A DNA stretch of 64,000 nucleotides, taken from Bifidobacterium aerophilum. Its GTDB lineage: Bacteria; Actinomycetota; Actinomycetes; Actinomycetales; Bifidobacteriaceae. The stretch covers positions 1-64,000 of the forward strand of contig NZ_WHZW01000017.1 of assembly GCF_010667685.1 (NCBI RefSeq), written 5' to 3'. Positions 18,210-55,719 of the stretch are shown here, piece by piece (position 1 is the first letter of the stretch; the number at the start of each line of letters is the position of its first letter). The position numbers and the translations under genes are program-made. The notes below the pieces were generated by a model. The model ran no database searches and was not told the DNA's origin. It worked only from the letters and a program-made list of their open reading frames with translations.

Positions 18210-18238
18210 GCGTGATGCGTGCAGATGCGTGCGCATCG

Positions 18239-36455: not shown

Positions 36456-37430
36456 TCACGCAGCGCGGGCGATAGCCTGCTCGTAATCCTTCGTGCCCTT
36501 GAACACTTCCTGGATCCACGGGTTGACGCCCTGCTTCTTCGCGCGGACCAGGATGTAGCCGAGCGCGAGCACGTTCGCCACGAGCGCGATCAGGGACACC
36601 GTCAAGTTCACGTTCGGGTTGTTCACCGACTGCGTGGAGAACACCGAGTAGTCCTGGAACATCGGGAACACCTGGGCGAACATGCACCAGATCGCCAGCG
36701 TGTTCGCGCGGTTCTGGATCCAGCCGCCCTTGTTCCAGAAGAAGTTCGCGACGGTCGGGGCGAGCAGCAGCGCAAGGCCGCAGTACCACGAGTGCGTGGG
36801 CAGGCAGTTGTACGTGTAGCAGAAGTTCCACAGGTCGTACGCGACGATGAACACCCACGTCATGTCCGGCCAGAGCATGTCGTCCTTCTTCTTGGACACG
36901 TAGATGCCGAACCAGCCGGTCATGCAGGCGATGTTGATGATGCCGGCCACGCCGTTGAACACGTTGTGCCAGCCGCCCATGAGCGTCACGCCTTCGGTGG
37001 AGACCCAGGTGGTGCCCCACGCGCGGAACGCGGACTCGAAGTCGGAGACGACGGCGATGAGGATGTTGATCGCGACGATCACGAACGGGAAGCACTTGAA
37101 CCAGTCGGACTTGCCGATCTTGCCCCAGCGGTACTTGAGCGCCATGAAGCCGATGCAGCCGGCGGTGGCGGCGTACAGCTTCGCGTAGTGGAACCACGAC
37201 GTCATGTGCACGTAGGTCGGGTTGTTGAGCGCCCAGTCGGCGCCGGCCGCGGCCGCGACGTAGATGGTGACGAAGTAGACGGTCAGGATCGCGGGAACGA
37301 CGAGGAACGCGATGATGCCGCCGGTTTTGGTGCGTCGGGCGAGTTCGTTCGCGCCAATCAGGCAGCAGAACACGAGTATCCAGCCGATCCACTGCCACAC
37401 GGCGTTGTCACCATAGACCTGAAACAGCAT
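36456..37430 (-). CDS. DUF5692-family integral membrane protein
   Basis: A 324-aa multi-pass membrane protein with roughly nine hydrophobic segments (for example WIGWILVFCCLIGANEL, IIAFLVVPAILTVYFVTIYVA, TVSLIALVANVLALGYILV) and a short basic cytoplasmic tail. Aromatic-rich conserved-looking blocks such as WVFIVAYDLWNFCYTYNCLPTHSWYCGLALLLAP suggest a ligand path. I believe it belongs to the uncharacterised DUF5692 family. It is encoded directly after the lactonase and dehydrogenase genes of the rhamnose pathway, and has its own consensus promoter. A role in rhamnose or rhamnonate transport is a reasonable guess only. Confidence 0.8.
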   Translation of the reverse strand: MLFQVYGDNAVWQWIGWILVFCCLIGANELARRTKTGGIIAFLVVPAILTVYFVTIYVAAAAGADWALNNPTYVHMTSWFHYAKLYAATAGCIGFMALKYRWGKIGKSDWFKCFPFVIVAINILIAVVSDFESAFRAWGTTWVSTEGVTLMGGWHNVFNGVAGIINIACMTGWFGIYVSKKKDDMLWPDMTWVFIVAYDLWNFCYTYNCLPTHSWYCGLALLLAPTVANFFWNKGGWIQNRANTLAIWCMFAQVFPMFQDYSVFSTQSVNNPNVNLTVSLIALVANVLALGYILVRAKKQGVNPWIQEVFKGTKDYEQAIARAA

Positions 37431-37525
37431 GAGGGTCCTTTCCTTCTTCTCGATGCGCGCGGCGGGGCGCGGCCGGAAACGGCGCAGGACGGCCGTGGAA
37501 CGCTCCCCGTTGGGCGTGTTGACGA

Positions 37526-37578
37526 GATGTCAAATTTCTTGCGACATCGAGTATAGAAGGCGGTTGACAGTGTGTCAA
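37526..37578 (-). promoter_or_regulatory. Consensus promoter and two inverted repeats before the DUF5692 gene
   Basis: On the minus strand TTGACA (37573-37578), 17 bases, TATACT (37550-37555). The -35 lies in the perfect inverted repeat TTGACAGTGTGTCAA (37564-37578); a second repeat GATGTC...GACATC (37526-37548) lies just downstream of the -10. Both share a TGTC/GACA core, so one regulator may bind both. Confidence 0.65.
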
Positions 37579-37634
37579 TTCGTGTGGCGCGCTGACGGAA
37601 AGCGGGGGCGCGCGAAGGCGACGCGCCACCGCGA

Positions 37635-38588
37635 TCAGAACCGGTAGAACCGCCGCGCGTTGCCGACGAACATCGCGTCGCGCTCGCTTGAGGACATCGT
37701 CTCGACGCAGCGCGCGAACCCGTGGACGATGTCGGCGTACGTGCCGTGCAGCTTGTCGACGGGGAAGTTCGACGCGAACATCACACGGTCTGTGCCGAAC
37801 GCGTCCAGCACGGTGTACACGGCCGGCTTGATGCTTTCCAACGTCCAGCGATGGTCCATCGACGCGAGTCCGGAGATCTTGATCGCGCAGTTGTCGCGCC
37901 GGCCCAGCTCGCGCAGTCCGTCGTGCCACAGCTTCCAGCCGGCGAAGTCGCGGTCGGCCCACATGCCGGCGTGGTTGATCACGAACAGCGTGTCCGGGTG
38001 CGCGTCGATCACCTCGCAGGCGCGCCCGAACTGCGTCGGGTACAGCTGCATGTCGAAGCTCAGCCCGTACTTGCCGAGCAGTCCCAGCCCGGCCAGCCAC
38101 TGCGGATCGTCCATGTACGGCTTGTCGACGTAGTGGTACAGCGGATGGTCGTGCATGTTGAGGTTCTGCCTGAAGCCGCGCACGTCGCGGTACGACGCCT
38201 CGCGTTCGAGCAGCGGCTCGATGTCCGGCGCGCTCAGGTCGCCGCCGGCGACGATCCTGATCGGCCATCCGGACGTCTCGCCCATGCGCTGCACGGCCTC
38301 GATCTCGGCGATCGGGTCGTCGGCGTTGGCCTGCACGTGCACCGCGCCGAGCAGCTCGATCGGCGTGCCGTCCGTCTCGGCGGCGAGGTCGGCGGCCACG
38401 TAGTCGCCCGCGTCGAACAACGGATCCCACGGTCCTTCGAACGTGGGCGGCTTCGACCGGTTGAACCACGAGTACAGGCCGACCTCCATGAGATGCACGT
38501 GCGTGTCGATGAACGGCCGGGGCGCGGCAGCCTGCTCGGCCGTTTCCGGGATGATCGTGGCCAGTCGGTCGATGACGATTTCGCTCAT
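37635..38588 (-). CDS. Amidohydrolase-2 family lactonase (likely L-rhamnono-lactonase)
   Basis: A 317-aa TIM-barrel metal-dependent hydrolase with the N-terminal PFIDTHVHLMEVGLYSWFN metal motif, FVINHAGMWADRDFAGWKLWHDGLREL and VMFASNFPVDKLHGTY near the C-terminus. Members of this family open sugar lactones such as L-fucono- and L-rhamnono-lactone. The gene is flanked by an SDR dehydrogenase and lies 1.2 kb from L-rhamnonate dehydratase, so hydrolysis of L-rhamnono-lactone is the likely reaction. AGGAAC precedes the start. Confidence 0.85.
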   Translation of the reverse strand: MSEIVIDRLATIIPETAEQAAAPRPFIDTHVHLMEVGLYSWFNRSKPPTFEGPWDPLFDAGDYVAADLAAETDGTPIELLGAVHVQANADDPIAEIEAVQRMGETSGWPIRIVAGGDLSAPDIEPLLEREASYRDVRGFRQNLNMHDHPLYHYVDKPYMDDPQWLAGLGLLGKYGLSFDMQLYPTQFGRACEVIDAHPDTLFVINHAGMWADRDFAGWKLWHDGLRELGRRDNCAIKISGLASMDHRWTLESIKPAVYTVLDAFGTDRVMFASNFPVDKLHGTYADIVHGFARCVETMSSSERDAMFVGNARRFYRF

Positions 38589-38620
38589 ATGTGGGTTCCT
38601 GTCTGGCGGTGGAATGATGG

Positions 38621-38780
38621 GTGTTTCACCCCCTCAGTCAGCTACGCTGACAGCTCGTCCCGCAATTAAGGACGAGCTACGCTCGCGTTTCATTGGCTCG
38701 CCTGTCGGCTCGCACATTGCCTACAAACAGCTCTGCTGTTTGCTTGACGGCAATGTCCCTTCAGGGGGAGCTGGGGAGGG
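38621..38780. repeat. Dispersed intergenic repeat (CCCCCTCAGTC family), interrupted copy
   Basis: The left half CACCCCCTCAGTCAGCTACG with TGACAGCT (38628-38655) and the right half TTCAGGGGGAGCTGGGGAGG (from 38760) match the repeat copies at 13277 and 44931, but about 100 bases are inserted between them (38656-38757). The insert has its own small hairpins (AACAGCTCTGCTGTT; GACGAGCTACGCTCGC). It fills most of the gap between the lactonase and dehydrogenase genes. Confidence 0.75.
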
Positions 38781-38782
38781 GT

Positions 38783-39580
38783 CTACAGCACGGAACGGGT
38801 GTCGTTCTCGTACGAGTTGCGGCCCTGCCCGGTGGCGGCGGTCGTGCCGCCGTCGACCGGCACCACGAGTCCGGTCAGGTACGCGGCGTCGTCGGAGGCG
38901 AGGAACAGCGCGATGCCGGCGCAGTCCTCAGGCCGCCCGGTGCGGCCGAGCGCCACGCGGTCGAGATACGGCTGCACGCGCGCCGGGTCGGTCCACACCT
39001 CGCGGTTGATGTCGGTTTCGATGAAGCCGGGCGCGAACGCGTTGATGCGCACGCCCTTGGCGCCGTAGTCGAGCGCGACGCAGCGCACGAAGCCGTTCAT
39101 CGCGTGCTTGGTGGAGTTGTACGCGGTCTGGCCCCAGTCGCCGTACAGGCCGGAGACGGACGTGTCGACGACGATGTTGCCGTGCGACTTGATCAGGTGC
39201 GGCAACGCCTCCTTGGTCAGGTAGAACAGGCCGTCCATGTTGACGGCGAACAGCTTGTGCCACACCTCGTCGGAGACGTGCTCGATCTCGCCTCCCTCGA
39301 AGATGCCGGCGTTGGAGACGACCACGTCGAGCCGGCCGAATTCGTCGACGACGGAGCTGACGAGCTCGGCGACCTGCGCGTGGTCGGAGACGTCGGTGAT
39401 GTGCATGTGACCGCGTTCGTACCCGGCGATCGTCTCCTCGAGCGGGGCGGTGCGCTTGCCGACGGCGACGACGGTGGCGCCGTTGTCGAGGAACGCCCGC
39501 GTGATCGCGCGGCCGATGCCGGTGCCGCCGCCGGTGACGATGACGACCTTGCCTTCGAAACGGTACGTGTTGCTGGTCAT
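38783..39580 (-). CDS. SDR-family sugar dehydrogenase (likely L-rhamnose 1-dehydrogenase)
   Basis: A 265-aa short-chain dehydrogenase. The NAD(P)-binding motif VIVTGGGTGIGRAI is near the N-terminus, followed by VVVSNAGI, the catalytic Ser region DTSVSGLYGDWGQ and YNSTKHAM (Tyr and Lys), then PGFIETDIN. AAGGAG precedes the ATG at 39580. In this context it should oxidise L-rhamnose to L-rhamnono-lactone, the first step of the non-phosphorylating pathway; L-fucose is also possible. It is transcribed divergently from the dehydratase gene. Confidence 0.87.
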   Translation of the reverse strand: MTSNTYRFEGKVVIVTGGGTGIGRAITRAFLDNGATVVAVGKRTAPLEETIAGYERGHMHITDVSDHAQVAELVSSVVDEFGRLDVVVSNAGIFEGGEIEHVSDEVWHKLFAVNMDGLFYLTKEALPHLIKSHGNIVVDTSVSGLYGDWGQTAYNSTKHAMNGFVRCVALDYGAKGVRINAFAPGFIETDINREVWTDPARVQPYLDRVALGRTGRPEDCAGIALFLASDDAAYLTGLVVPVDGGTTAATGQGRNSYENDTRSVL

Positions 39581-39714
39581 GGGTGAAGCTCCTTCGGTTC
39601 GTGCGCGGGCGGTTGGCGGCGTTGCCGGTCGCGGCGCGGTGCGTTCGTGGCGGGCGGGCCGGCGCGGGGCGCGACGGTCCGTGCTACGCACCAGTTCACC
39701 ACAGTTGAAACACC

Positions 39715-39740
39715 GTCCCACATATAGGGATACCATCCCG
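39715..39740. promoter_or_regulatory. Candidate IclR operator in the divergent dehydrogenase/dehydratase promoter
   Basis: TCCC-ACATATA-GGGA overlaps GGGAT-ACC-ATCCC (39727-39739), two interlocked inverted repeats. A TTGAAA word 20 bases before is a possible -35 for the dehydratase gene. Confidence 0.45.
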
Positions 39741-39792
39741 CACGCTGTAGCGTAGGCGATATCCACACATTCCGCGACGGAGAGGAATCACC

Positions 39793-41019
39793 ATGACGTT
39801 GGCGCCATCACTGAAGCTGCCCACGATCACCGCGATCCGCGCCTACTCGATGGGCGGCGCGGCCGCCACCATCCACGGGCAGGGCGGCGGCGACTACCAC
39901 GACCAGGGCAAGGACCACTGGATCGACGACCACATCGCCACGCCGATGAGCAAGTACAAGGAATACGAGCAGTCCCGCCAGTCGTTCGGCATCAACGTGC
40001 TCGGCACGCTCGTCGTCGAGGTCGAGGCGTCCGACGGCACCACCGGCTTCGCGATCTCCACCGCCGGCACCGTCGGCTGCTTCATCGTCGAACACCACCT
40101 GTCCCGCTTCGTCGAAGGCAAGCGCGTCGACCAGATCAAGCTCATCCACGACCAGATGCTCAACGCCACGCTGTACTACTCCGGCGGAGGCGGCGTGGTC
40201 ATCAACACGATCTCGTGCGTCGACCTCGCGCTGTGGGACCTGTACGGCAAGGTGCTGAACCTGCCCGTCTACAAGCTGCTCGGCGGCGCGGTGCGCGACG
40301 AGATCCACTTCTACGCGACCGGCGCACGCCCCGACCTCGCCCAGAAGATGGGCTTCATCGGCGGCAAGCTGCCGACCCACTGGGGTCCGGCCGCCGGCGA
40401 CGAAGGCATCGCCAGGGACATCGCGACGCTCGCCGACATGCGCGAGAAGGTCGGCGACGACTTCTGGCTGATGTTCGACTGCTGGATGAGCCAGGACGTC
40501 AATTATGCGACCAAGCTCGCGCACGCCGCCGCGCCGTACAAGCTCAAGTGGATGGAGGAATGCTTCCCGCCGAACCAGATCGAGTCGTACCGCGAACTCA
40601 AGAAGCACATGCCGGCCGGTATGCTCATGACCACCGGCGAGCACACCGGCACGCTTGAGGCGTTCAAGGAACTGTCCGACGCGGGCGTCGACATCATCCA
40701 GCCCGACGTCGGCTGGTGCGGCGGCGTGACCTCGCTGTGCGAGATCGCGGCGATCGCCAAGGCGCGTGGACAGCTCGTCGTGCCGCACGGCTCGTCCGTC
40801 TACTCGCATCACGCGGTGATCACGTTCACGAACACGCCGTTCAGCGAGTTCCTCATGACCTCGCCGCACGCCGACAGCCTGCGCCCGCAGTTCGACCCGA
40901 TCCTGATCGGCGAGCCGGTGCCCGAAGGCGGCGTGATGACCGCCGAGCAGCTCGACAAGCCCGGCTTCGGCGTCGAGCTCAACCGCGACTGTCCGCTTGA
41001 GCGGCCGTTCACGCACTGA
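39793..41019 (+). CDS. rhmD: L-rhamnonate dehydratase
   Basis: A 408-aa enolase-superfamily enzyme that removes water from L-rhamnonate to give 2-keto-3-deoxy-L-rhamnonate. I recognise close similarity to E. coli YfaW/RhmD along the whole length: [25 protein letters not shown] at the N-terminus, [49 protein letters not shown], the metal-binding Asp/Glu residues, and [31 protein letters not shown] with the catalytic His. GAGAGGA precedes the start. Its function makes the identity of the neighbouring dehydrogenase, lactonase and aldolase much firmer. Confidence 0.96.
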
Positions 41020-41032
41020 TTCGTCATTGTCT

Positions 41033-41059
41033 GGGCTCCCTCGCCAAGAGAGGGAGCCC
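41033..41059 (+). other. Hairpin between rhmD and the aldolase gene
   Basis: Perfect 10-base inverted repeat GGGCTCCCTC / GAGGGAGCCC with a 7-base loop and no T run, in the 66-base gap within the operon. It could reduce readthrough or stabilise the upstream message. Confidence 0.6.
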
Positions 41060-41085
41060 GGCATCGTCGCAAAGGAGCTTCATCC

Positions 41086-41880
41086 ATGACTTCCGTACCG
41101 CTGCCGCACAACCCGTTCAAGGCGGCGCTCAAGGCCGCCGCGACCGCGACCGATCCCGCCGCCCGACCGCAGCTCAAGGGCCTGTGGATCGCGATGGGAT
41201 CGTCCACCTCTATCGAGATCGCCGCCGAAATCGGCTACGACTGGCTGCTCATCGACGGCGAGCACGGCCCGAACGACCTCACCGGCATCCTCGCCCAGCT
41301 GCGCGCCTGTCACGGTTACCCGACCACGCCGATCGTGCGCCCGGCTGCGGCCGATCCGGTGCTCATCAAGCAGGTGCTCGACCTCGGCGCGCAGACGCTG
41401 CTCGTCCCGATGGTCAACACGCGCGAGGAGGCCGAGCTCATGGTCCGCGCGGTCGAATACGCGCCCTCGGGCATTCGCGGCGTCGGCGGCGTGATCGCCC
41501 GATCCGGCCGCTGGGGCCTCATCCCGGACTACATGGCCACCGCCCGCGACGAGATCTGCCTGATCGTGCAGGTCGAATCGCGCGAGGCGCTCGACAACAT
41601 CGACGAGATCGCCGCCGTGGACGGCATCGACGGCGTCTTCATCGGGCCCGCCGACCTGTCCGCCTCGCTCGGGCACCCGGACGACGCCGGCGCGATCCAG
41701 GACGAGATCCACCGCGCGTTCGACATGATCGCCTCCCACGGCAAGGCGATCGGCTCGCTCGCCTTCGACCCGGCCACCGCCCGCAAGTACTTCGAGTGGG
41801 GCGCGTCGTTCGTCGCCGTCGCCGGCGACACCGACGTGTACGTGCGCGGACTGGCCGCCGAACTCGAACAGTACCGGTGA
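41086..41880 (+). CDS. rhmA: 2-keto-3-deoxy-L-rhamnonate aldolase
   Basis: A 264-aa class II aldolase of the HpcH/HpaI family (E. coli YfaU/RhmA type) that splits 2-keto-3-deoxy-L-rhamnonate into pyruvate and L-lactaldehyde. Family blocks are clear: GLWIAMGSSTSIEIAAEIGYDWLLIDGEHGPND, GAQTLLVPMVNTREEAELMVRAVEYAPSGIRGVGG and metal-binding VQVESREALDNIDEIAAVDGIDGVFIGPADLSASLGHP. AAAGGAG precedes the ATG. L-lactaldehyde would be reduced to 1,2-propanediol by an enzyme not in this window. Confidence 0.94.
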   Translation: MTSVPLPHNPFKAALKAAATATDPAARPQLKGLWIAMGSSTSIEIAAEIGYDWLLIDGEHGPNDLTGILAQLRACHGYPTTPIVRPAAADPVLIKQVLDLGAQTLLVPMVNTREEAELMVRAVEYAPSGIRGVGGVIARSGRWGLIPDYMATARDEICLIVQVESREALDNIDEIAAVDGIDGVFIGPADLSASLGHPDDAGAIQDEIHRAFDMIASHGKAIGSLAFDPATARKYFEWGASFVAVAGDTDVYVRGLAAELEQYR

Positions 41881-41908
41881 CCGTCCGAGCGGCGTATCGT
41901 GAGAAACC

Positions 41909-42697
41909 ATGACCCGAACCGATGAGCCCGCCATCCCCGGTGCGCAGACCCTGATCAATGGCATCGCCGTGCTCAAGGCCGTCGCCGCCGGGGCGCGCAC
42001 GCTCGCCGACCTCACCGAGACGACCGGCCTGAGCCGCAGCACCACGCACCGGCTCGTGCAGGCGCTGCGCGCCGAACGCATGCTGCGCGACACCGTCGAA
42101 GGCGCACTCGCCCTCGGCCCGGCGCTCATCGAACTCGGATTCCAGGCGCGCGAGGACATCTCCATCCCCGCCATCGCGCGCCCCTACCTGCTCGACCTGT
42201 CCGACCTCACCCGGGACACCATCCACCTCGCCGCCGAAGATGCCGGCGAAACGCTGTACCTCGACAAGATCCGCGGCAGCCGCACCATCGAGATCCGCTC
42301 GTGGCCGGGATGCCGCATGCCGCTGACCTACACCGGCATCGGCAAGGCGCTGCTGCTCGACCGGCCCGACCGCTGGGAAAGCCAGTACCTCGCCGACCGC
42401 GAACGCATGGAACGCCAGCCCGAACACGACTATTCCGGCGCGGCCGCGTTCGCGCGCGCCATGGAACGCTACGCCGCACAGGGATACGCCTACGACCTGG
42501 AGGAGAACGAGGCCGGCGTGCGCTGCATCGCCGCACCCGTGCGCGACGCGGCCGGCACGATCGCCTGCGCGATCTCCGTCTCCAGTTTCAAGACCTTCAT
42601 GCCCACCGACCGCATGCACCGGCTCGGGCCCGTCGTGCGCGACGCGGCCGACGCCATTTCGCGCGAACTCGGATGGAACGGGCAGCCGACGCGTTAA
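41909..42697 (+). CDS. IclR-family regulator of rhamnose catabolism
   Basis: A 262-aa IclR regulator. The winged helix (LINGIAVLKAVAAGARTLADLTETTGLSRSTTHRLVQALRAERML) is followed by a GAF-like effector domain (ETLYLDKIRGSRTIEIRSWPGCRMPLTYTGIGKALLLD; GVRCIAAPVRDAAGTIACAISVS). It starts 28 bases after the aldolase stop, in the position of E. coli YfaX. It is the likely local regulator, sensing a pathway intermediate. Confidence 0.92.
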   Translation: MTRTDEPAIPGAQTLINGIAVLKAVAAGARTLADLTETTGLSRSTTHRLVQALRAERMLRDTVEGALALGPALIELGFQAREDISIPAIARPYLLDLSDLTRDTIHLAAEDAGETLYLDKIRGSRTIEIRSWPGCRMPLTYTGIGKALLLDRPDRWESQYLADRERMERQPEHDYSGAAAFARAMERYAAQGYAYDLEENEAGVRCIAAPVRDAAGTIACAISVSSFKTFMPTDRMHRLGPVVRDAADAISRELGWNGQPTR

Positions 42698-42782
42698 GGT
42701 GCGTTAAGGTAAAGGCGAGCGGGGATGCGCCCGCGTGGCCGCACGAGGACGGGTGCGGCGGACCGAGGGAGGAGGACCGGAC

Positions 42783-43499
42783 ATGTTCACCGTGGCGGTG
42801 GTCGAGGACGACGAGAACGCGGCGGCGCGCCTGCGCGCGTGCCTGAAGCAATACGAGAACGACCATACCGGCGTGCGGTTCGACGTGACCGAATTCCGCG
42901 AGCCGACGAGCTTCCTCGAACCGTACAGCGCCAACTGGGACATCGTGTTCATGGACATCGAAATGCCGAACATGGACGGGCTGGAAGCAGCGCACCGCCT
43001 GCGCGAACTCGACTCCAAGACGATCCTCATGTTCGTGACGAACATGGCGCAGTTCGCCGCCAAAGGCTACGAGGTGGACGCGCTCGACTACATCATCAAA
43101 CCGTTCGCCTATCCCGACTTCGAACGCAAGCTCGCCCGCGCGCTGCGGCTGGCGCAGGCCGACGGCGAATCCCTGCTGGTCAGCCAGCGCGGCAGCTCGC
43201 GACGCATCGCGCTGCGCGACATCAGCTACATCGAAATCCGCGCGCACAACCTCGAATACCACACCGATTCCGGCACGATCAGCGCGTACGGCTCGCTGCA
43301 GGACATCGAGGACCGTCTGTCGGGCAGCGGGTTCATGCGCTGCGGCAAGCCGTACCTGGTCAGCAGCCGTCACGTCGCGCAGGTCGCGGGGGACACGGTC
43401 ACGCTGACGGACGGCACGCAGCTGCCAATCGGACGCGCCTACCGCAAGTCGTTCATGCTCGCGCTCGCCGAGAACCTGGGGAACGACCGTGTTCGCTGA
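42783..43499 (+). CDS. LytTR-family response regulator (system 1)
   Basis: A 238-aa regulator of the AgrA/LytR type. The receiver domain contains FTVAVVEDDENAAARLRAC, the phospho-Asp in DIVFMDIEMPNMDG and the conserved Lys in DYIIKPF; the C-terminal LytTR DNA-binding domain has RIALRDISYIEIRAHNLEYHT and FMRCGKPYLVSSRHV. GGGAGGAGG precedes the ATG. It overlaps the kinase gene by 11 bases. The receiver domain is nearly the same as that of the regulator at 54921. LytTR proteins bind direct repeats about 11 bases apart, not tested here. Confidence 0.93.
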   Translation: MFTVAVVEDDENAAARLRACLKQYENDHTGVRFDVTEFREPTSFLEPYSANWDIVFMDIEMPNMDGLEAAHRLRELDSKTILMFVTNMAQFAAKGYEVDALDYIIKPFAYPDFERKLARALRLAQADGESLLVSQRGSSRRIALRDISYIEIRAHNLEYHTDSGTISAYGSLQDIEDRLSGSGFMRCGKPYLVSSRHVAQVAGDTVTLTDGTQLPIGRAYRKSFMLALAENLGNDRVR

Positions 43500-44928
43500 G
43501 ATCGCGTCCGCCGCGGTGTCGGCCGCCGTTGCGGCGATGACGATGATTCCGACGATGACGTCCGGCGCGGCCATCGCGTCCATCTCGGCCTTCGAGACGG
43601 TGCTGGTCGGTGGGTTCCGCACGTTCGGCGAGATGCTGCTCTGGTTCTTCTCCGCCAACGGCTACGTGATCGAGATCCTCGTCACCGCGGAAATGTTCAC
43701 TTGGTGGATCGAACGGCGGACGCGCTGGCGGCTGCGGCTGGCCGTGTGCGTGCTCGCGATGATCGCCGTGGCGACGACGATGGCCGCGTTCAACCAGCCG
43801 CAGGACGCGCTCGGCCAGATCGCGCGGCTCGTGCTGCTGGACGCGCTGTGCTTCGTCGCGCTGACCGTGTGCCGCAGGCTCGACGTGACGCAGGGGCTGT
43901 TCTACACGGCGGCCGTCGTCGGACTGCAGCACCTGGCCTACGGCGGCTCGCAGATCGTGATGGGCGTGGTCCATGTCGTGACGCATATCCGCGACGATGC
44001 GATGGACCTGTGGCTGTACCCGGTCTCGTTCGCGGCGCTGCTGGCCGCATGGTACTGGCTGTTCTCCCGGCCCATGCAGGGCCATGTGCCGCAGGGGCTC
44101 GCCGACAGCCACGTCGTGCCGCTGCTCATCGGCGTGGTGCTCAGCGTGGACGTGTTCTCCTGCCTGTTCGACTATTTCACGGCCGACGCCGGCATCGGCA
44201 TCAACATCTACGCGTACATGATGTTCATCCTCACCCGCACCGTGCTGTGCGCGTTTCTGCTGCTCATGCAGCGCGAGATCGTCATGCGCGAGGCCGCGCA
44301 GCGCGACGGCGAGGTGCTCAAGCAGCTGCTGTACCAGCAGAAGTCGCAGCTGGCCGCCGACAAGCAGACCATCGACCTGATCAACGTGAAGACGCACGAC
44401 CTCAAGAAGCAGCTGAACATGCTCGGCGGACGCATCCCGGCCGAGGAGATCGAGGAGCTGCGCGGGCTGGTCGGCATCTACGATTCGTCGGTGCGCACCG
44501 GCAACGAGGCGCTCGACGTGCTGCTGGCGAACAAGTCGCTGGTGTGCGAGCAGAAGCACATCCAGTTCGACCGGATGATCGACGGCGCCAGCCTGAAGTT
44601 CATGAAGCCGGCCGACATCTACTCGCTGTTCGGTAACGCCGTCGACAACGCGATCGAGGCGGCGGGCGCGGTGGCCGACCCGTCGCGGCGGTACATCCGC
44701 ATGAAGGTGCGCGCCGAGGCCGGGATGCTCGTGGCGCACGTGGAGAACCCGTACGACGGCGAGCGGCGCTTCGAGAACGGCCTGCCGGTCACCACGAAGG
44801 ACGACAAGCGCTACCACGGCTTCGGCGTGCGGTCGATGCGCATGATCGTGGAGCAGTACGACGGCGTGCTGTCCGCGAAGGCCGAGGACGGCGTGTTCAC
44901 GGTGAACATTCTTATTCCCGTGCCGTAG
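43489..44928 (+). CDS. GHKL sensor histidine kinase (system 1)
   Basis: A 479-aa membrane sensor. The N-terminal half has about six membrane segments; the C-terminal half has a coiled linker, the likely phospho-acceptor region INVKTHDLKKQLNML, and a GHKL ATPase domain (SLFGNAVDNAIEAAGAV; FGVRSMRMIVEQYDG). It resembles AgrC-type kinases that sense small ligands or peptides. GTG start at 43489 inside the end of the regulator gene, with CTGGGGA upstream. Placed between rhamnose catabolism and the rhamnosidase, it may control the glycosidase block. Confidence 0.9.
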   Translation: MFAEIASAAVSAAVAAMTMIPTMTSGAAIASISAFETVLVGGFRTFGEMLLWFFSANGYVIEILVTAEMFTWWIERRTRWRLRLAVCVLAMIAVATTMAAFNQPQDALGQIARLVLLDALCFVALTVCRRLDVTQGLFYTAAVVGLQHLAYGGSQIVMGVVHVVTHIRDDAMDLWLYPVSFAALLAAWYWLFSRPMQGHVPQGLADSHVVPLLIGVVLSVDVFSCLFDYFTADAGIGINIYAYMMFILTRTVLCAFLLLMQREIVMREAAQRDGEVLKQLLYQQKSQLAADKQTIDLINVKTHDLKKQLNMLGGRIPAEEIEELRGLVGIYDSSVRTGNEALDVLLANKSLVCEQKHIQFDRMIDGASLKFMKPADIYSLFGNAVDNAIEAAGAVADPSRRYIRMKVRAEAGMLVAHVENPYDGERRFENGLPVTTKDDKRYHGFGVRSMRMIVEQYDGVLSAKAEDGVFTVNILIPVP

Positions 44929-44930
44929 CG

Positions 44931-44998
44931 GGTGTGACCCCCTCAGTCGCCTGCGGCGACAGCTCCCCCTGGTAGGGGGCGCAGCAATAAAGGGGAGC
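44931..44998. repeat. Dispersed intergenic repeat (CCCCCTCAGTC family), copy 4
   Basis: GTGTGACCCCCTCAGTCGCCTGCGGCGACAGCTCCCCCTGG followed by TAGGGGGCGCAG. It lies directly after the kinase stop and its hairpins could also act as the transcript end. 44999-45218 shows nothing further beyond the ribosome binding site of the next gene. Confidence 0.8.
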
Positions 44999-45218
44999 GT
45001 CACCGCCGATGTCGTTTGTGGGGTGAAAAACGCATCTTGTGATGGCCGCGTGGCGGATGCGCCCGGCGTGCGCTTGACTGAATATCACAAGGTTTCCAAC
45101 GACCGGAAATCGGTGAGGACGAGACGACGCGGACCATGACGGTCCGGTTCGCCACAGTCGAAAGAGACACAGTCGAGAGAGACACGAGTCGCGAGACACG
45201 ACAAGGAAGGGTGACGTC

Positions 45219-47807
45219 ATGCTGACGATTGATCGTTTGACCGTGGAAAACCTGGAACACGGTTGCGTGACCGACAATCCGAAGCCGCGGTTTTCCTACA
45301 CGCTGAGCGGCACCGCCGACGCGGCCGTGCGCGACGTGACCCTGACCGTCGGCGAATGGTCCTGCCATCCGGACACGCAGATCGCGTATCCCTACGACGG
45401 TCCCGCACTCAAGCCGTTCGCCACGTACCCGGTCGAGCTGTCCGTCACCGACGAGCAGGGCGTCACCGTAAGCGCGACGACCTCGTTCGAAACCGGACGT
45501 TTCGGCGAGGCATGGGCCGGCTCGTGGATCACGGACGGCGACTACCGCTTCACCGACAAGAAGATCTCCCCGAAGCCGATGAGCTTCCGCCGCACGGTCG
45601 CTCCCGCGGACGGCAAGACCGTCGTCCGCGCGCGCCTGATCGCCACCGCGATGGGCGTCTATGAGTTCGCGCTCGACGGACGCAAGGTCGGCGACCGCTA
45701 CTTCGCCCCCGGTTTCACGTCGTACAAGACGAACCTGCAGTACCAGACCTACGACGTCACCGAGCAGCTTGCGGACGGCGGCGAGCACACGCTGATCGCC
45801 ACCGTGGCCGGCGGCTGGGCCGTCGGATCGTTCGTGTTCACGCGCGTCAACCGCGTCACCGCGGACCGCCAGGCCCTGCTCGCCGAACTGCGCATCGACT
45901 ACGCCGACGGCACGAGCGAGGTCATCGGCACCGACGCCGACTGGGACGTCACCATGGACGGTCCGGTCGAAATGGCCGACCTGTACGACGGCGAGACCTA
46001 CGACGCGACCAAGGCGTTCGGCGCGGACGGCAACGCGGGCGGCACACGCTGGCGCAAGGCCGCGATCGAACGTCCGAAGACCGAACCGAAGCGCATCGAG
46101 GCCGACTACGGCGCGCCCGTGCGCGAACACGAGACGTTCGAGCCGGTCAGCTGCAAGCGCCGCGCCGACGGCGAGCTCATCTATGACTTCGGCCAGAACT
46201 TCGCCGGCGTCGTCCGCCTCGAGATCGCCGGCGCATCCGCCGGCCAGGTCGTCACCGTGCGCCACGCCGAGATCCTCAACCCCGACGGCACGCTCAACAC
46301 CACGTTCCTGCGCACCGCCAAGGCCACCGCCACCTACACCTGCACGGCCGGCGACCAGACGTACGCCCCGCGCTTCACCTACATGGGCTTCCGCTACATC
46401 GCCGTGCGCGGCATCGAGGCGAAGCAGCTCAAGGTCACGGGCGTCGCGCTCTACTCCGAACTGACCCGCACCGGCGACTTCGCCTGCTCCGACGAGCGCC
46501 TCAACCAGCTGCAGAGCAACATCGTGTGGGGCGCGAAGTCGAATCTGTTCGACATTCCCACCGACTGCCCACAGCGCGACGAACGCATGGGCTGGACCGG
46601 CGACATCGCCGTGTTCGCGCCCACCGCCTGCTACGACTTCGACATGAGCCGCTTCCTCGACAAGTGGCTGCGCGACGTGAAGGCCGAGCAGCTGCCCACC
46701 GGCGGCATCCCGAACACCGTGCCCGTGCAGGGCTACGGATTCCCGGCCACCATGCCCGAAATGGCGATCGCCTGGTGGGGCGACGCGGTCGTGCTCGTGC
46801 CGTGGGCCGAATACCGGGCGCGCGGCGACAGGTCCGTGCTCGAGCGCATGTACGAGCCGATGAAGAAGTACGTGAACGCCTGCCGCTTCTGGGCCGGCCT
46901 GTTCGGCTTCGGCAAGCACCGCTACATCTGGTGGATGCCCACCCCGTTCCAGTTCGGCGACTGGGTCGCGCCCGACGTGCCGAAGATGCAGCAGTGGCAG
47001 GCCCGCGGCAAGTGGACCGGCACCGCCAGCCTCAACAACACCGCCCGCACGCTCGCCCAGGTGGCCCGTGTGCTCGGCCATGACGACGACGCCCGCGAAT
47101 ACGACGAGCTCGCCGACCGCGTGGCCGACGCGTACGTCTCCGTGTTCACCGACGGCAACGGCAAGCTCAACGACGAATTCCAGACCGCGTACGTGCTGCC
47201 GCTGCACCTGGGCATGTTCCCGGACGCCGCCACGCGCGACAAGGCCGTGAACAACCTCGCCGCGCTCGTCGAATCGAACGGATATAAAATCGGCACCGGC
47301 TTCCCGGGAACGCCGTACATCCTGTTCGCGCTCGCCGACAACGGACGGCCGGACGTCGCGTTCCGCATGCTCGCCAACGAGCAGTGCCCGAGCTGGCTGT
47401 ACGAGGTCAAGATGGGCGCGACGACGATCTGGGAGCGCTGGGACGGCCTCGACGAGCACGGCGAATGCCCGATCGGCGACGACGGCACGGACCTCATGAT
47501 CTCGTACAACCACTACGCCTCCGGCGCGGTCGGCGCGTTTCTCTACCAGCGCGTGGCCGGCATCGAGCCGATCGAGGCCGGATATCGAAAGTTTCACGTG
47601 AAACCGCTGCTCGGCGGCGGGATCACCTGGGCGAACGGACACGTCGATACGCCGTACGGCCGCGTCGGATCGGCCTGGTCGATCACCGGCAAGCGGTTCG
47701 ACATCACCGTGGACGTGCCGTTCGGCACCGTCTGCGAGCTGACGCTGCCGGACGGACGCACGCAGGAACTCACCCACGGCAGCCACACGGTGACGTGCGA
47801 GCTGTAG
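45219..47807 (+). CDS. GH78 alpha-L-rhamnosidase
   Basis: An 862-aa family-78 rhamnosidase without a signal peptide, so cytoplasmic. Order: N-terminal beta domains (LTIDRLTVENLEHGCVTDNPKPRFSYTL), a carbohydrate-binding-like region (GVYEFALDGRKVGDRYFAPGFTSYKTNLQYQTYDVT), then the (alpha/alpha)6 barrel with DCPQRDERMGWTGDIAVFAPTACYDFD and ATTIWERWDGL (general-base Glu about residue 739), and a C-terminal beta domain. AAGGAAGG precedes the start. It should release L-rhamnose from imported rhamnosides and feed the adjacent catabolic genes. Confidence 0.95.
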   Translation: MLTIDRLTVENLEHGCVTDNPKPRFSYTLSGTADAAVRDVTLTVGEWSCHPDTQIAYPYDGPALKPFATYPVELSVTDEQGVTVSATTSFETGRFGEAWAGSWITDGDYRFTDKKISPKPMSFRRTVAPADGKTVVRARLIATAMGVYEFALDGRKVGDRYFAPGFTSYKTNLQYQTYDVTEQLADGGEHTLIATVAGGWAVGSFVFTRVNRVTADRQALLAELRIDYADGTSEVIGTDADWDVTMDGPVEMADLYDGETYDATKAFGADGNAGGTRWRKAAIERPKTEPKRIEADYGAPVREHETFEPVSCKRRADGELIYDFGQNFAGVVRLEIAGASAGQVVTVRHAEILNPDGTLNTTFLRTAKATATYTCTAGDQTYAPRFTYMGFRYIAVRGIEAKQLKVTGVALYSELTRTGDFACSDERLNQLQSNIVWGAKSNLFDIPTDCPQRDERMGWTGDIAVFAPTACYDFDMSRFLDKWLRDVKAEQLPTGGIPNTVPVQGYGFPATMPEMAIAWWGDAVVLVPWAEYRARGDRSVLERMYEPMKKYVNACRFWAGLFGFGKHRYIWWMPTPFQFGDWVAPDVPKMQQWQARGKWTGTASLNNTARTLAQVARVLGHDDDAREYDELADRVADAYVSVFTDGNGKLNDEFQTAYVLPLHLGMFPDAATRDKAVNNLAALVESNGYKIGTGFPGTPYILFALADNGRPDVAFRMLANEQCPSWLYEVKMGATTIWERWDGLDEHGECPIGDDGTDLMISYNHYASGAVGAFLYQRVAGIEPIEAGYRKFHVKPLLGGGITWANGHVDTPYGRVGSAWSITGKRFDITVDVPFGTVCELTLPDGRTQELTHGSHTVTCEL

Positions 47808-47841
47808 GACGGGAACGAACAGAAAGGATCAGGGACAAGCA

Positions 47842-49536
47842 ATGACAACCGCAACGACGCGCACGAACGGAGGGTTCTTCGACAACCCTCTGGTGCGCAC
47901 ACGCATCACCTCGGCGAACGTGAAACCGCCGGAGATGCTGCTCGGCTACTTCGTCGGACCGTTCTGCGCGTTCATCTCCAACGCGATCTTCGGCTCGTAC
48001 CTCAACCGCTACTACTCCGACGTGCTCGGCTGGACCGACACCACGAAATTCGGCATCTTCTCCGCCGTGCTGCCGATGGCCTCGGTCATCCTCGTGATCA
48101 TCGGCAACCTCGCCGTCGGCCGTCTCATCGACAACACGCGCACCTCGCAGGGCAAGGCCCGCCCGTACATGCTGCTGTCGGTGCCGTTCGTCGTCGTCGC
48201 GATCGCGCTGCTGTTCATGACCCCGACCGGCTCCGCACCGGTCGTGCAGATGATCTGGATCGCGGTCTCGTACAACCTGTACTACGCGCTCGCGTACCCG
48301 CTGTTCTACACCGCGCACAGCTCGATGGTCGGCCTGTCGACGCGCAACAGCAACCAGCGCGGCCTGCTGGCCACCCTGTCGAACGCGTCCGGCGTGGCCG
48401 CGGTGGGCGTGGGCGCGAGCATCCTCGTGCCGATCCTGCTGCAGAGCTTCCTGTTCGTCGACCATGACGGCGTGATCGACGCGGCAGCCAGCTACGCCAA
48501 CTGGCGCATCGTGATGATCGTGCTGTGCGTCGTCACCGCGATCGGTATCCTCATCGAGTACTTCTTCACCCGTGAGCGCATCACGGAAGAGAACATGAAG
48601 CTCAACATCAAGGAAGAGAAACTGCCGATGGCCAAGCAGGCCCGCGCCTGCATGTCGAACGGCTACTGGTGGATCATCATCGGCTACTTCCTGCTGTTCC
48701 AGCTGTCCGGCCTCATCAAGAACGGCTCGATGAGCTACTACTCGCGCTGGATGTTCGACGGCGTGAACTCCGAGGCATCGGCCGGCGCCGCGATGAGCAT
48801 GCTCGGCATGATCGGCGGCATCCCGACCGCCGTCGGCATGCTGCTCGCCTGGCCGATCGCCAACAAGCTCGGCAAGCGCAACGCGGTGCTGTTCGGCATG
48901 ATCGTCGCCGTGCTCGGCGGCTCGGTCAGCCTGCTCGACATCCACAGCTTCGTGATCGTGTGCGTCGGCGTGGTGCTCAAGGGCATCGGCTCGATCCCGG
49001 CCATGTACGTGACGCTGGCGATCCTGTCCGACGTGCTCGACCACCTCGAGGCGAAGAACGGCTTCCGTTCCGACGGCTTCACCATGTCGGTCTACGGCGC
49101 CATCATGGTCGGCATGACCGGCCTGGGCAACGGCATCATCAACCTGCTGCTCACCGCCACCGGCTACGACGCCACCGCCGCCTCGCAGAACGAGGGCGTG
49201 CAGACCGTGCTCGCCGGCTGCTACATCGGCGCCGAGCTCGTGTGCTACGCGGCCATCGTGATCCTCATGGTGTTCCTCAACGTCGAGAAGTACGTGAAGG
49301 AGGACCAGGCGACGATCCTCGAACACCAGAAGGCCGCGGTGCTGGCCGCCGGCGGCGAATGGATCGAACCGGCCGAACGCCTGCGCCGCGAACAGGAGGC
49401 CGCCGACCGCGAGGCCGAGGCCGCCCGCATCGAGGAGCTGCGCGCCCGCTGCGCCAAGAAGGGGCTCGACTTCGAGGCCGAAGAGGCCAAGTATCAGGCC
49501 AAGCTCGCCGCCAAGGCGGCCAAGGCCAAGAAATAA
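47842..49536 (+). CDS. GPH-family glycoside/sugar symporter
   Basis: A 564-aa transporter with twelve predicted membrane segments of the glycoside-pentoside-hexuronide type (MelB-like): LLGYFVGPFCAFISNAIFGSYLNRYYSDVLG, GNLAVGRLIDNTRTSQGKARPYMLLSVPFV, and SDVLDHLEAKNGFRSDGFTMSVYGA. The C-terminal 80 residues form a long charged coiled-coil-like tail (EQEAADREAEAARIEELRARCAKKG...AAKAAKAKK). GAAAGGA precedes the start, 34 bases after the rhamnosidase stop, so the two are one operon. Likely substrate: a rhamnosyl-disaccharide or rhamnoside (inference). Confidence 0.92.
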   Translation: MTTATTRTNGGFFDNPLVRTRITSANVKPPEMLLGYFVGPFCAFISNAIFGSYLNRYYSDVLGWTDTTKFGIFSAVLPMASVILVIIGNLAVGRLIDNTRTSQGKARPYMLLSVPFVVVAIALLFMTPTGSAPVVQMIWIAVSYNLYYALAYPLFYTAHSSMVGLSTRNSNQRGLLATLSNASGVAAVGVGASILVPILLQSFLFVDHDGVIDAAASYANWRIVMIVLCVVTAIGILIEYFFTRERITEENMKLNIKEEKLPMAKQARACMSNGYWWIIIGYFLLFQLSGLIKNGSMSYYSRWMFDGVNSEASAGAAMSMLGMIGGIPTAVGMLLAWPIANKLGKRNAVLFGMIVAVLGGSVSLLDIHSFVIVCVGVVLKGIGSIPAMYVTLAILSDVLDHLEAKNGFRSDGFTMSVYGAIMVGMTGLGNGIINLLLTATGYDATAASQNEGVQTVLAGCYIGAELVCYAAIVILMVFLNVEKYVKEDQATILEHQKAAVLAAGGEWIEPAERLRREQEAADREAEAARIEELRARCAKKGLDFEAEEAKYQAKLAAKAAKAKK

Positions 49537-49674
49537 CCGCAGATTTCCCGGTCCGCCGCCGCCGATGAAGCCGGCGGGCCGGGGCCACCAACAGATTTCA
49601 GGATTTTGCCGTTCAGAGCCGGCGCCACAAGCGTTCGGCTTAGGGCGACGACACCCAAAACAGGAGGAAAAACC

Positions 49675-52600
49675 ATGAAGACAAGCCCGAAAACCCGGGT
49701 GTGGAGAGGCGTGACGACGACGTTCGCATCGATGCTCGCGCTGTCGCTGGTCGCCACCAGCGCAGTGCAGGGCTTCCGCACCGATATCGACAAGTTCCTC
49801 GGCACCACCAGCTCGGCGTTCTCCACCGAGAACGCCAGCGCCGCGGACTACACCTACAAGTCCGACTATTCGAGCACCAAGGAGCTCGTCACCGCGATCC
49901 GCGACTTCGGCGAGAAGGTCAGCGAGGAAGGCTCCGTCCTGCTCAAGAACGACGGCGCGCTGCCGCTGTCCCAGGCCGAAACCCAGAAGATCAGCCTGCT
50001 CGGCTTCTCCAGCTACTACCCTGTGCAGGGCGGCGACATGGGTTCCTCGCTGTCCTCGTTCGAAGGCACCGACGCCGATCCGGTCGACATGGTCACCGCG
50101 TTCACCGAAAAGGGCTTCAAGATCAACACGGCCCTGCAGGACCTGTACAAGTCCATGGAATCCTCGTTCGTCTCCGAGGTCGTGAACCCGTGGGGCACCG
50201 ACACCTTCACCCGCATCACCTCGCCGGCCACCGACGGCACGTTCTCCAGCAAGGAGCCGTCGCAGGACACGATGACCGAGGCGAACGCCGACTGGAAGTC
50301 GACGCTCAACGACAACAACGTCATGATCGTCACCCTCGCCCGAGGCTCCGGCGAAAACCGCTCGTACACGCCCGGCAAGGACGGCGTCGATCCGAACCAG
50401 AACCTCAACCAGTCCGACCCGCTCGGCCTGTCCGATGACGAGCGCGACCTGATCAACGCGGCCGTCGATGCGAAGAAGGCCAACGGCGGCAAGGTGATCG
50501 TGCTGCTCAACAGCGCGCAGCAGATGGAGATCAACGAGATCGCCGACAACGCCGGCGTCGACGCGATCATGCAGATCGGCCTGCCCGGCGCCTACGGCTT
50601 CTACGGCGTCGCCGACCTGCTGTCCGGCGCGGCCAACCCGTCCGGCCACCTCGCCGACACCTGGGCCGTCGACAACTCCTCCGCTCCGTCCGCGCAGAAC
50701 TACGGCGATTACGCGTGGACCAACGCCGACGACTCGAAGTACATCAACTCCGAAATCGTCGAGGCCGAGGGCATCTACACCGGCTACAAGTACTACGAGA
50801 CGCGCTACGCCGACTCCGTGCTGAACCAGGGCGACGCGAAGTCGTCCACCGGCAGCTCCAACGGCGGCGCGTGGAACTACGACGACGAGGTGACGTATAC
50901 CTTCGGTTACGGCCTGAGCTACACCGACTTCGACCAGAAGCTCGACTCCGTGTCCGTCGACCTCAAGGACAAGACCGTCACCGCCAAGGTCACCGTGACC
51001 AACACCGGCAAGGTGGCCGGCAAGGACGTCGTCCAGCTGTACGCCAGCACGCCGTACACCGACTACGACAAGCAGCACAACGTCGAGAAGTCGGCCGTGC
51101 AGCTGCTCGACTACGCGAAGACCGACGAGCTCCAGCCGGGCGAGTCGACCACCGTCGAGATCAAGGCCGACGCGCAGTACATGGCCAGCTGGGACTCCAC
51201 CGCGTCCAACCAGGCCGGCAGCAAGGGCAACTACATCCTTGACGACGGCGACTACTACTTCGCCATCGGCAACGGCGCGCATGAGGCCGTGAACAACGTC
51301 CTCGCCGCGCAGGGCGCCGACGTCGACGGCAACAAGGCCGACGCCGCCAAGTGGACGCTCGACGAGTTCGACGACACGACCTTCGCGACCACCAAGAACG
51401 GCACGAACGTCGAGAACCAGCTCGCCGACGCCGACCTCAACAGCTACATGCCCGACACCGTGACCTACCTGTCCCGTTCCGACTGGTCCGGCACGTTCCC
51501 GAAGACCTACAAGGACCTGACCGCGACCGACGAGATGCTCAAGGGCGGCCTGTCGAACGACACGTACAAGATCGGCGAGCACAACGACGCCGAGGCGACG
51601 ACGTGGGGTGCGAAGAACGACCTGACCCTCGCCGACTTCAAGGGCAACGAGGACTTCACCGACTCCAAGTGGGGCGACCTGATGGACCAGATGACCCTTG
51701 AGGAGGCCATGATCCGCAACGCCTTCGGCGGCACCTCCACCAAGTCCGTCGCGACGATCAGCTCCCCGGAGGCCGTGCAGAACGACGGTCCGAACGGCTT
51801 CAACTCCTACACGCTCGGCCAGTACGCGAACACCGATCCGAACTCCGCCGACCCGTACAAGATCGACGCGAACGACCCGAACCTCAACTTCAAGATGGGC
51901 GTCATGGCCAACGAGTCCGTGCTCGGCCAGACGTTCAGCAAGCAGATCTCCGAGGAATGGGGCAAGCTGCTCGGCAACTACTCCATCTGGGCCAACCTGC
52001 CGATCCTGTGGGGCGTGGGCACCAACCTGCACCGTTCGCCGTACAACGCGCGTAACCACGAGTACTACTCCGAGGATCCGATTCTGACCGCCTTCCAGGG
52101 CGCGGCGTCCGTCACCGCGGCCAAGGCGTACGGCCTGATCCTCGCCCCGAAGCACTACGCGTTCAACGACACCGAGATCAACCGCACCGGCCTGTCCGTG
52201 TTCATGACCGAACAGAAGGCCCGCGAAGGCGAGCTGCGTGCCAACCAGTCCATCGTCGAGGACGCCGGCACCATGGGCATGATGAGCGCCTACAACCGCA
52301 TCGGCGTGACCGCGACCAACGCGCACACCGGCCTCATGCTCGGCATCCTGCGCGGCGAGTGGGGCTTCAAGGGCCTCATGAGCGAGGACTTCATCCAGGA
52401 TCCCACCTACGCGCAGCTGGCCGCCGCCGTCCACAACGGCATCACGATGCTGTGCCTGACCGGCGACAACAGCATCGCCGCGGTCTCCAAGGTCTGGCCG
52501 TACTGGACCGTGAAGAACGTGAGCACCGACAGCCAGCTCGTGAGCGACCTCAAGCGCAACATGACCTGGCAGTTCCAGGCCATCGCGAACTCCAACGCGA

Positions 52601-52755
52601 TGGACGGCCTGAACTCCAGCTCCCGCGTGGTCACCCTGCGCACCTGGTACGACAACGTGCTGACCGGCGTCAGCATCGTCACCGGCCTGTTCGCCCTGCT
52701 CGGCGCCGCGATGTACGTGGTGTCCCTGCGCGGCAAGGGTTCCAAGAAGGCCTGA
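49675..52755 (+). CDS. GH3 beta-glucosidase-like enzyme, reversed domain order, two membrane anchors
   Basis: A 1026-aa family-3 glycoside hydrolase. An N-terminal hydrophobic segment (FASMLALSLVATSAV) is followed by the GH3 C-type domain first (SEEGSVLLKNDGALPL), a fibronectin-III-like domain (VTVTNTGKVAGKDVVQLYAS), then the GH3 TIM barrel (WGVGTNLHRSPYNARNHEYYSEDP; APKHYAFND; GFKGLMSEDF with the nucleophile at about D905). This order is reversed relative to most GH3 enzymes, as in the Ruminococcus albus and Butyrivibrio fibrisolvens enzymes. The C-terminus is a membrane segment (GVSIVTGLFALLGAAMYVVSL) with a basic tail, so the catalytic part should sit outside, tethered at both ends. AGGAGG precedes the ATG at 49675. 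Confidence 0.92.
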   Translation: MKTSPKTRVWRGVTTTFASMLALSLVATSAVQGFRTDIDKFLGTTSSAFSTENASAADYTYKSDYSSTKELVTAIRDFGEKVSEEGSVLLKNDGALPLSQAETQKISLLGFSSYYPVQGGDMGSSLSSFEGTDADPVDMVTAFTEKGFKINTALQDLYKSMESSFVSEVVNPWGTDTFTRITSPATDGTFSSKEPSQDTMTEANADWKSTLNDNNVMIVTLARGSGENRSYTPGKDGVDPNQNLNQSDPLGLSDDERDLINAAVDAKKANGGKVIVLLNSAQQMEINEIADNAGVDAIMQIGLPGAYGFYGVADLLSGAANPSGHLADTWAVDNSSAPSAQNYGDYAWTNADDSKYINSEIVEAEGIYTGYKYYETRYADSVLNQGDAKSSTGSSNGGAWNYDDEVTYTFGYGLSYTDFDQKLDSVSVDLKDKTVTAKVTVTNTGKVAGKDVVQLYASTPYTDYDKQHNVEKSAVQLLDYAKTDELQPGESTTVEIKADAQYMASWDSTASNQAGSKGNYILDDGDYYFAIGNGAHEAVNNVLAAQGADVDGNKADAAKWTLDEFDDTTFATTKNGTNVENQLADADLNSYMPDTVTYLSRSDWSGTFPKTYKDLTATDEMLKGGLSNDTYKIGEHNDAEATTWGAKNDLTLADFKGNEDFTDSKWGDLMDQMTLEEAMIRNAFGGTSTKSVATISSPEAVQNDGPNGFNSYTLGQYANTDPNSADPYKIDANDPNLNFKMGVMANESVLGQTFSKQISEEWGKLLGNYSIWANLPILWGVGTNLHRSPYNARNHEYYSEDPILTAFQGAASVTAAKAYGLILAPKHYAFNDTEINRTGLSVFMTEQKAREGELRANQSIVEDAGTMGMMSAYNRIGVTATNAHTGLMLGILRGEWGFKGLMSEDFIQDPTYAQLAAAVHNGITMLCLTGDNSIAAVSKVWPYWTVKNVSTDSQLVSDLKRNMTWQFQAIANSNAMDGLNSSSRVVTLRTWYDNVLTGVSIVTGLFALLGAAMYVVSLRGKGSKKA

Positions 52756-55709: not shown

Positions 55710-55719
55710 GGTGATCGAC

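Follow-up and report, generated by a model that had tools for sequence, protein, structure and literature searches.

The analysis concerned a window of 64,000 nucleotides from Bifidobacterium aerophilum (contig NZ_WHZW01000017.1, here C17, positions 1-64000 of a genome of 2,998,264 bases) and, within it, a divergent gene cassette at 37635-42697, in which an SDR dehydrogenase gene and an amidohydrolase gene (LAC) ran in one direction and the genes for RhmD, an HpcH/HpaI aldolase and an IclR-family regulator in the other. We consider it likely, with good if incomplete confidence, that these five genes turn L-rhamnose via L-rhamnonate into pyruvate and L-lactaldehyde, probably under the IclR regulator of the cassette, and that the neighboring block around a GH78 rhamnosidase is a separate unit. 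The open frames of the window were listed and ten proteins were scanned against Pfam and NCBIfam. All gene families named in an earlier, sequence-only reading of this DNA were recovered as open frames of the families it gave, and family models scored over their cut-offs for each of its SDR, amidohydrolase, RhmD, IclR and GH78 calls.

Families fitting the dehydrogenase, lactonase, dehydratase and aldolase of the non-phosphorylated L-rhamnose pathway stood together at 37635-41880. In the proposed sequence of reactions, the SDR would oxidize L-rhamnose to the lactone, LAC would open the lactone, RhmD would dehydrate L-rhamnonate, a step strongly indicated by its family, and the aldolase would split 2-keto-3-deoxy-L-rhamnonate into pyruvate and L-lactaldehyde. 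A lactaldehyde reductase whose gene lies on another contig, C32 (TIGR02638 524.0 bits, cut-off 523.15; PRK10624 629.8 bits, cut-off 537), would then make 1,2-propanediol, and this reduction could balance the redox of the first oxidation. L-rhamnose was favored as the substrate because LAC was confined to genomes with RhmD, because relatives of LAC lay beside rhmD, Lra1 and rhaT, and because one palindrome preceded rhmD as well as SDR genes separated from it. Together with the RhmD score, these points supported the earlier proposal of a non-phosphorylating route with L-rhamnose as its most likely substrate. The 1,2-propanediol that had been proposed with it was retained as a likely product, on account of the lactaldehyde reductase on C32 and of such a gene lying across the operator from rhmD in Actinotignum.

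The dehydratase was the best-defined member of the cassette. RhmD (39793-41019, plus strand) scored 722.9 bits against the equivalog model PRK15440 (cut-off 393) and its residues 2-408 aligned with solved L-rhamnonate dehydratases; its family assignment is secure. Relatives at 82-94% identity in named genomes all belonged to Bifidobacterium. A search for RhmD loci kept the best 80 of 263 relatives, 19 of which were from Bifidobacterium, and in all 19 of these named loci the aldolase and IclR genes followed rhmD. The predicted 2-keto-3-deoxy-L-rhamnonate aldolase (41086-41880, plus strand) matched PF03328 at 172 bits and was related to YfaU (2vws, 251 bits). The regulator (41909-42697, plus strand) carried both domains of its family over cut-off (IclR_C 119 bits, cut-off 24; HTH_IclR 38.7 bits, cut-off 22).

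The predicted L-rhamnono-lactonase LAC (37635-38588, minus strand) belonged to the amidohydrolase-2 family (PF04909, 125.6 bits, cut-off 26.4). Among 112 Bifidobacterium genomes, the source genome included, RhmD at 82% identity or more was present in 17, with one copy (G065) being a fragment of residues 223-408. LAC at 59% identity or more was found in 14, all of them among the 17 (Fisher p 3e-15, shared ancestry ignored). Outside the genus, LAC relatives came from 528 plasmid records, all below 60% identity, of which 25 were listed. Of the seven regions opened, six came from the LAC list (two of these, H2 and H3, picked since the same record stood in the RhmD list) and the seventh (H40) from the RhmD list. 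LAC relatives of 37-47% identity adjoined rhmD in five of these seven proteobacterial regions, namely in Burkholderia cenocepacia, two Caballeronia, Sphingobium and Caulobacter. The last two also carried Lra1 over the cut-off of its model (467 and 460 bits, respectively, against 400), together with a gene annotated as rhaT, one for FAH and one for a second SDR. At residue 274, LAC had Asn and the solved relative 4dlf had Asp. This substitution was rejected as a sign of inactivation, since Asn was kept in all 120 homologues listed out of 785 and in the Caulobacter relative from the Lra1-rhmD-rhaT locus; the Sphingobium relative had Asp.

It is very improbable that the true substrate is a related sugar such as L-fucose, L-lyxose or L-mannose. 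The substrates of RhmD enzymes include certain other acid sugars, and LAC gave a weak match of 75.1 bits to the L-fucono-1,5-lactonase model NF052480, whose cut-off is 400. However, RhmD lay far over its curated cut-off, relatives of LAC occurred with Lra1 and rhaT, and in four genomes a GH78 gene stood no more than 6 kb from RhmD, all of which argues for L-rhamnose.

A predicted operator joined the two arms of the cassette. A comparison of the 210 bases upstream of rhmD brought out a recurring palindrome around TCCCA-N-ATATA-GGGA, on which a matrix was trained. In the window the matrix scored 34.5 bits at 39704-39742 (33.9 in leave-one-out), between the divergent SDR and RhmD genes; the next site, 9.9 bits at 38646 ahead of LAC, was within noise, as 20 shuffles of the window peaked at 4.5 to 17.5 bits. 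Over 806,993 Bifidobacterium positions, some of them overlapping, 54 sites reached 12 bits, training sites included, against a mean of 4.0 in block-shuffled copies. The leave-one-out test covered 300-base upstream regions and omitted one locus per round, so that close relatives remained; a site of at least 12.9 bits preceded rhmD in 23 of 25 Bifidobacterium regions, the failures being G082 and G091. Twelve SDR genes head to head with rhmD share the site of rhmD. Where over 450 bases separated the SDR gene from rhmD, or the SDR gene lay beside LAC on a different stretch, it had a site of its own in eight of nine cases (13.3-29.9 bits; 3.9 in L048), and SDR genes lacking both RhmD and LAC as neighbors (G092, G016, G054, G074 and G087) had a site in none of five cases (-9.3 to -3.6 bits). 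It is probable, judging from this pattern, that the IclR protein controls the cassette through the palindrome at 39704-39742.

Among other upstream regions, 15 of 464 reached 12 bits and 14 were listed. These were the regions ahead of rhmD and of its divergent neighbor in three Actinotignum genomes, which were not in the training set, and those ahead of MFS genes from five species of Bifidobacterium (L038, L039, L045, L046 and L051), of GH78 and LacI genes in G086 and of a LacI gene in G090. The Actinotignum gene across the operator was a lactaldehyde reductase in L053, the one locus scanned (631.6 bits, cut-off 537). The stretch carrying the lactaldehyde reductase of B. aerophilum itself had no site of 9 bits or more. 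The three Actinotignum loci (L053-L055) were also seen to hold an rhmD cassette with an aldolase, an IclR gene (52-53% identity) and a galactonate-transporter-like MFS gene.

Several observations weighed against the L-rhamnose reading. A LAC relative was found in Niveispirillum with no RhmD in the opened region, and in Rhizobium it followed an ABC transporter away from rhmD; a lactonase of this type is thus often, not always, associated with rhmD. The aldolase remained under both equivalog cut-offs (RhmA PRK10128, 279.8 bits against 441; HpaI, 303 against 369) and is filed as an HpcH/HpaI family member only, so that the RhmA-type call of the earlier reading stood at the level of the family and fell short of any NCBIfam equivalog. 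No cassette-linked rhamnose transporter was identified in the genome. The predicted L-rhamnose 1-dehydrogenase (38783-39583, minus strand, start probably the ATG at 39580) matched adh_short families but reached only 172.2 bits with the Lra1 model NF053807, whose cut-off of 400 was passed by the Caulobacter and Sphingobium controls. Its best model was BudC (NF052558, 277.6 bits, cut-off 270) and its solved relatives were 2,3-butanediol dehydrogenases. At 83% identity or more, the SDR was found in 18 of the 112 genomes (Fisher p 8e-12, ancestry ignored), which were the 14 LAC genomes and G016, G054, G074 and G087; the latter four lacked RhmD and LAC, and their SDRs were nested among the cassette SDRs in the tree. 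In G092 the gene lay far from RhmD and LAC and had no operator.

These features would suit an SDR that serves as a diol or acetoin dehydrogenase, or one whose substrate is 2-keto-3-deoxy-L-rhamnonate on a route to lactate, for which one FAH-family gene was present elsewhere in the genome. Such a role is considered unlikely. The SDR accompanied LAC in 14 of 14 LAC genomes, as counted at genome level, its identity was 36-38% with Lra1 of Caulobacter and Sphingobium and 29% with the SDR after FAH, and the cassette contained an aldolase and no FAH gene. The lactate-forming FAH route was set aside as the less likely one on the latter grounds. The SDR was not filed as Lra1, but it may still work like Lra1. 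Its step was the least certain of the pathway, because the protein failed the Lra1 model and stood without RhmD in four genomes.

The surroundings of some SDR genes were observed as well. In G092 and G087 (L145 and L149) the lone SDR lay between a gene of 738-749 amino acids and a gene of a class Ib ribonucleotide reductase small chain cluster, and in G086 and G090 (L137 and L138) the whole cassette and a GH78 gene lay between those same two clusters. This looks like insertion or decay at one place.

RhmD stood without LAC and SDR in G065 (an assembly of about 300 contigs), G082 and G091. A further point against the L-rhamnose reading came from the latter two, which had RhmD, the aldolase and the IclR gene, without LAC, SDR or operator. 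In the named Bifidobacterium loci, SDR and LAC lay within the flank of RhmD in 14 of 19; of the remaining five, L040, L041 and L042 (corresponding to G111, G008 and G050) had the SDR-LAC pair elsewhere in the genome. The last two, from B. xylocopae (L050) and ESL0784 (L052, G091), had an MFS gene of one cluster adjoining rhmD, and that of L050 was nearest to a D-galactonate transporter model, under its cut-off. The RhmD of L052 and L150 (G091 and G082) was 82% identical to the query, with an MFS gene beside rhmD in place of LAC and SDR; this version is possibly a rhamnonate-only one.

Such loci, in which a galactonate-transporter-like MFS gene, scoring below the model cut-off, accompanies RhmD and LAC was absent from the searched genomes or flank, could indicate that the cassette as a whole serves external L-rhamnonate, as in enteric bacteria, and that SDR and LAC do something else. 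Enteric loci likewise group RhmD, IclR and aldolase genes, and the LAC query had no match there. We regard this explanation as improbable for the window, since LAC was confined to RhmD genomes and the operator preceded eight of nine separated SDR genes accompanied by the cassette or LAC.

The classical RhaA-RhaB-RhaD pathway was not found in this genome. RhaA (PF06134) was absent from all 112 Bifidobacterium genomes, with positive controls in E. coli, B. subtilis and Bacteroides ihuae; in the source genome RhaD aldolase (TIGR02624) gave no match and RhaB (TIGR02627) a single one of 38.6 bits against a cut-off of 528. The earlier statement that rhaA, rhaB and rhaD genes were missing was thereby confirmed.

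Two transporter candidates were rejected. The DUF5692 membrane protein (36456-37430, minus strand), identified in the Pfam and NCBIfam scan between a lipid-kinase-like gene and the cassette and unnamed in the earlier reading, had no match in the 80 RhmD loci. A promoter-like site ahead of it (37578-37550) was one found against 1.3 expected by chance. It had 5332 homologues at E of 0.001 or less among 7428 candidates, and the named ones of the 120 listed, about 80% identical, were from Collinsella, Mobiluncus and Arcanobacterium; the protein represents a common, highly conserved family, and a member also lay near the GH78 module of G051. The second candidate, the MFS gene at 53525-54841, was not preceded by an operator. 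Its identity to the MFS genes of the GH78 modules was 67% in G051 and 82% in G066, and 38-41% to the MFS gene that eight relatives carry near the cassette.

To the right of the cassette, the left-to-right order of DUF5692, LAC and SDR (all minus) and RhmD, aldolase and IclR (all plus) was continued on the plus strand by LytTR, GHKL kinase, GH78 and GPH symporter genes and then by a GH3 gene. The LytTR and kinase genes had been passed over in the earlier reading. They encoded a LytTR response regulator (42735-43499; a 90% identical gene precedes the GH78 orthologue of G066) and a GHKL histidine kinase (43489-44928; HATPase_c_5 91 bits, with an 86% identical gene in the G066 module). The GH78 alpha-L-rhamnosidase (45219-47807) had four GH78 domains over cut-off (PF17389, PF08531, PF05592 and PF17390), a Rha78A-like N-terminal Ig domain also over cut-off, and a match of 483 bits to the solved rhamnosidase 3w5m. 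The symporter (47842-49536), a predicted importer of rhamnosylated saccharides, supported the earlier GPH call in part, being far over the cut-off of Pfam MFS_2 (PF13347, 235 bits) and below that of the GPH model (156 bits against 231); melibiose permease was among its solved relatives, as a weak match. The GH3-family protein (49606-52755; PF01915 and PF00933), the last enzyme of the module, had a 93% identical counterpart at the corresponding position in G066. By hydropathy, GH78 was without a hydrophobic N-terminal segment and GH3 had one near each end. GH78 is thus probably cytoplasmic, and an arrangement with GH3 outside, import by GPH and GH78 inside the cell may be envisaged.

The earlier reading had described the rhamnose pathway as tied to this rhamnosidase, and here the observations were divided. 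It was considered almost evenly balanced whether the two blocks are mere neighbors, with GH78, GPH and GH3 serving another glycoside under their own LytTR system and the cassette taking free rhamnose from elsewhere, an alternative that concerns the tie to the rhamnosidase and not the pathway. The LytTR-kinase-GH78-GPH-GH3 set occurred together in G066, G051 and G092 (GH78 90, 71 and 67% identical, the two-component pair being inverted in G051). These three were the genomes besides the source genome in which this GH78 reached 65% identity; G066 and G051 were without RhmD, and in G092 RhmD was on another contig; a looser pair in G080 (GH78 52%, GPH-like gene 36%) was also without RhmD. None of the 19 named Bifidobacterium loci had the window's GH78 next to the cassette, and the operator core, with up to one mismatch, occurred once in the genome and not ahead of GH78. 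On the other hand, GH78 matches were present in 32 of the 112 genomes, in 13 of 17 with RhmD against 19 of 95 others (Fisher p 1e-5, ancestry ignored). Three further genomes had an unrelated GH78 gene no more than 6 kb from RhmD, and two of these had an operator-like site ahead, between LacI and GH78 in G086 and G090, though the sites were near threshold (15.4 and 12.0 bits), the genomes are related and the third, G081, had no site ahead of GH78. The claim of a tie was thus weakened. We propose that the LytTR-kinase-GH78-GPH-GH3 genes form a separate module, which probably takes up a rhamnosylated saccharide, cleaves it and may in this way supply the cassette.

Other glycoside hydrolase loci were noted. 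A different GH78 (35-38% identity), split into two frames at 16394-18794, stood beside the cassette in L049, a metagenome-assembled genome. Downstream in the window, a second block (53525-63288) was built like the GH78 module, with the MFS gene discussed above, a LytTR-kinase pair (54921-57102), GH3 (57266-60409) and GH2 (60559-63288). Elsewhere in the genome (C3:108001-124000, L130), glucuronate isomerase, fructuronate-reductase-like and mannonate dehydratase genes lay together, with a distant GH78-like gene (L129) some 16 kb away.

If the reading of the cassette is correct, the species with RhmD (17 of 112 genomes) could ferment L-rhamnose without sugar phosphorylation, releasing 1,2-propanediol. 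Which species should use the route can be predicted from the gene pairings and the operator, so the claim can be checked strain by strain. More tentatively, and at somewhat less than an even chance, the genes may be seen as a mobile, redox-neutral rhamnose fermentation cassette of Bifidobacterium and Actinotignum with its own IclR operator, which recruits rhamnosidase, transporter and lactaldehyde reductase genes by means of that operator and whose SDR belongs to a branch unmodelled for rhamnose 1-dehydrogenase.

The cassette was compared with known systems. The enteric rhmD-rhmA cluster was alike in RhmD (69-77% identical in the loci listed), in the aldolase (about 44-54% in most loci) and in the presence of an IclR gene; however, that IclR was 26-32% identical and on the other side of rhmD, and the LAC query had no match in those loci. 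The Caulobacter and Sphingobium loci shared a LAC relative (37-39%), RhmD (59-60%) and an IclR gene (46%), whereas they contained Lra1, rhaT, FAH and a second SDR, in place of which a different SDR and an aldolase were found here, in a cassette without FAH or rhaT. The Sphingomonas/Azotobacter-type pathway has the same order of chemistry, from dehydrogenase through lactonase to dehydratase (PMC3870299). The L-fucose route of Bifidobacterium also proceeds by oxidation, lactone opening, dehydration and aldol cleavage, with 1,2-propanediol formed in B. infantis, but its proposed aldolase is a relative of dihydrodipicolinate synthase, while an HpcH/HpaI aldolase and an RhmD dehydratase were found here (PMC5080750, PMC7732495).

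A literature search, with most subscription journals outside its reach and its sources available in part, found no description of a rhamnose IclR operator, SDR or lactonase from Bifidobacterium and no rhamnose growth tests of species with the cassette. A precedent was a study of marmoset isolates (mBio 2021, PMC8406136), which calls rhamnose use relatively rare in Bifidobacterium. It places rhaW and rhaD at a pectin island in MARM_A1 and next to a 6xH alpha-L-rhamnosidase in MARM_A3, that is, L-rhamnonate dehydratase and aldolase genes as found here, in MARM_A3 beside a rhamnosidase. The genes are read there as pectin cross-feeding, and the words dehydrogenase, lactonase, IclR and operator do not occur in its main text. 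The rhamnose route called notable in the sequence-only reading thus had a precedent in its main features, since dehydratase and aldolase genes had been reported for those isolates (PMC8406136). The cassette is real, conserved and known in outline, and the additions made here are its operator, the link to the lactonase and its separation from the rhamnosidase module.

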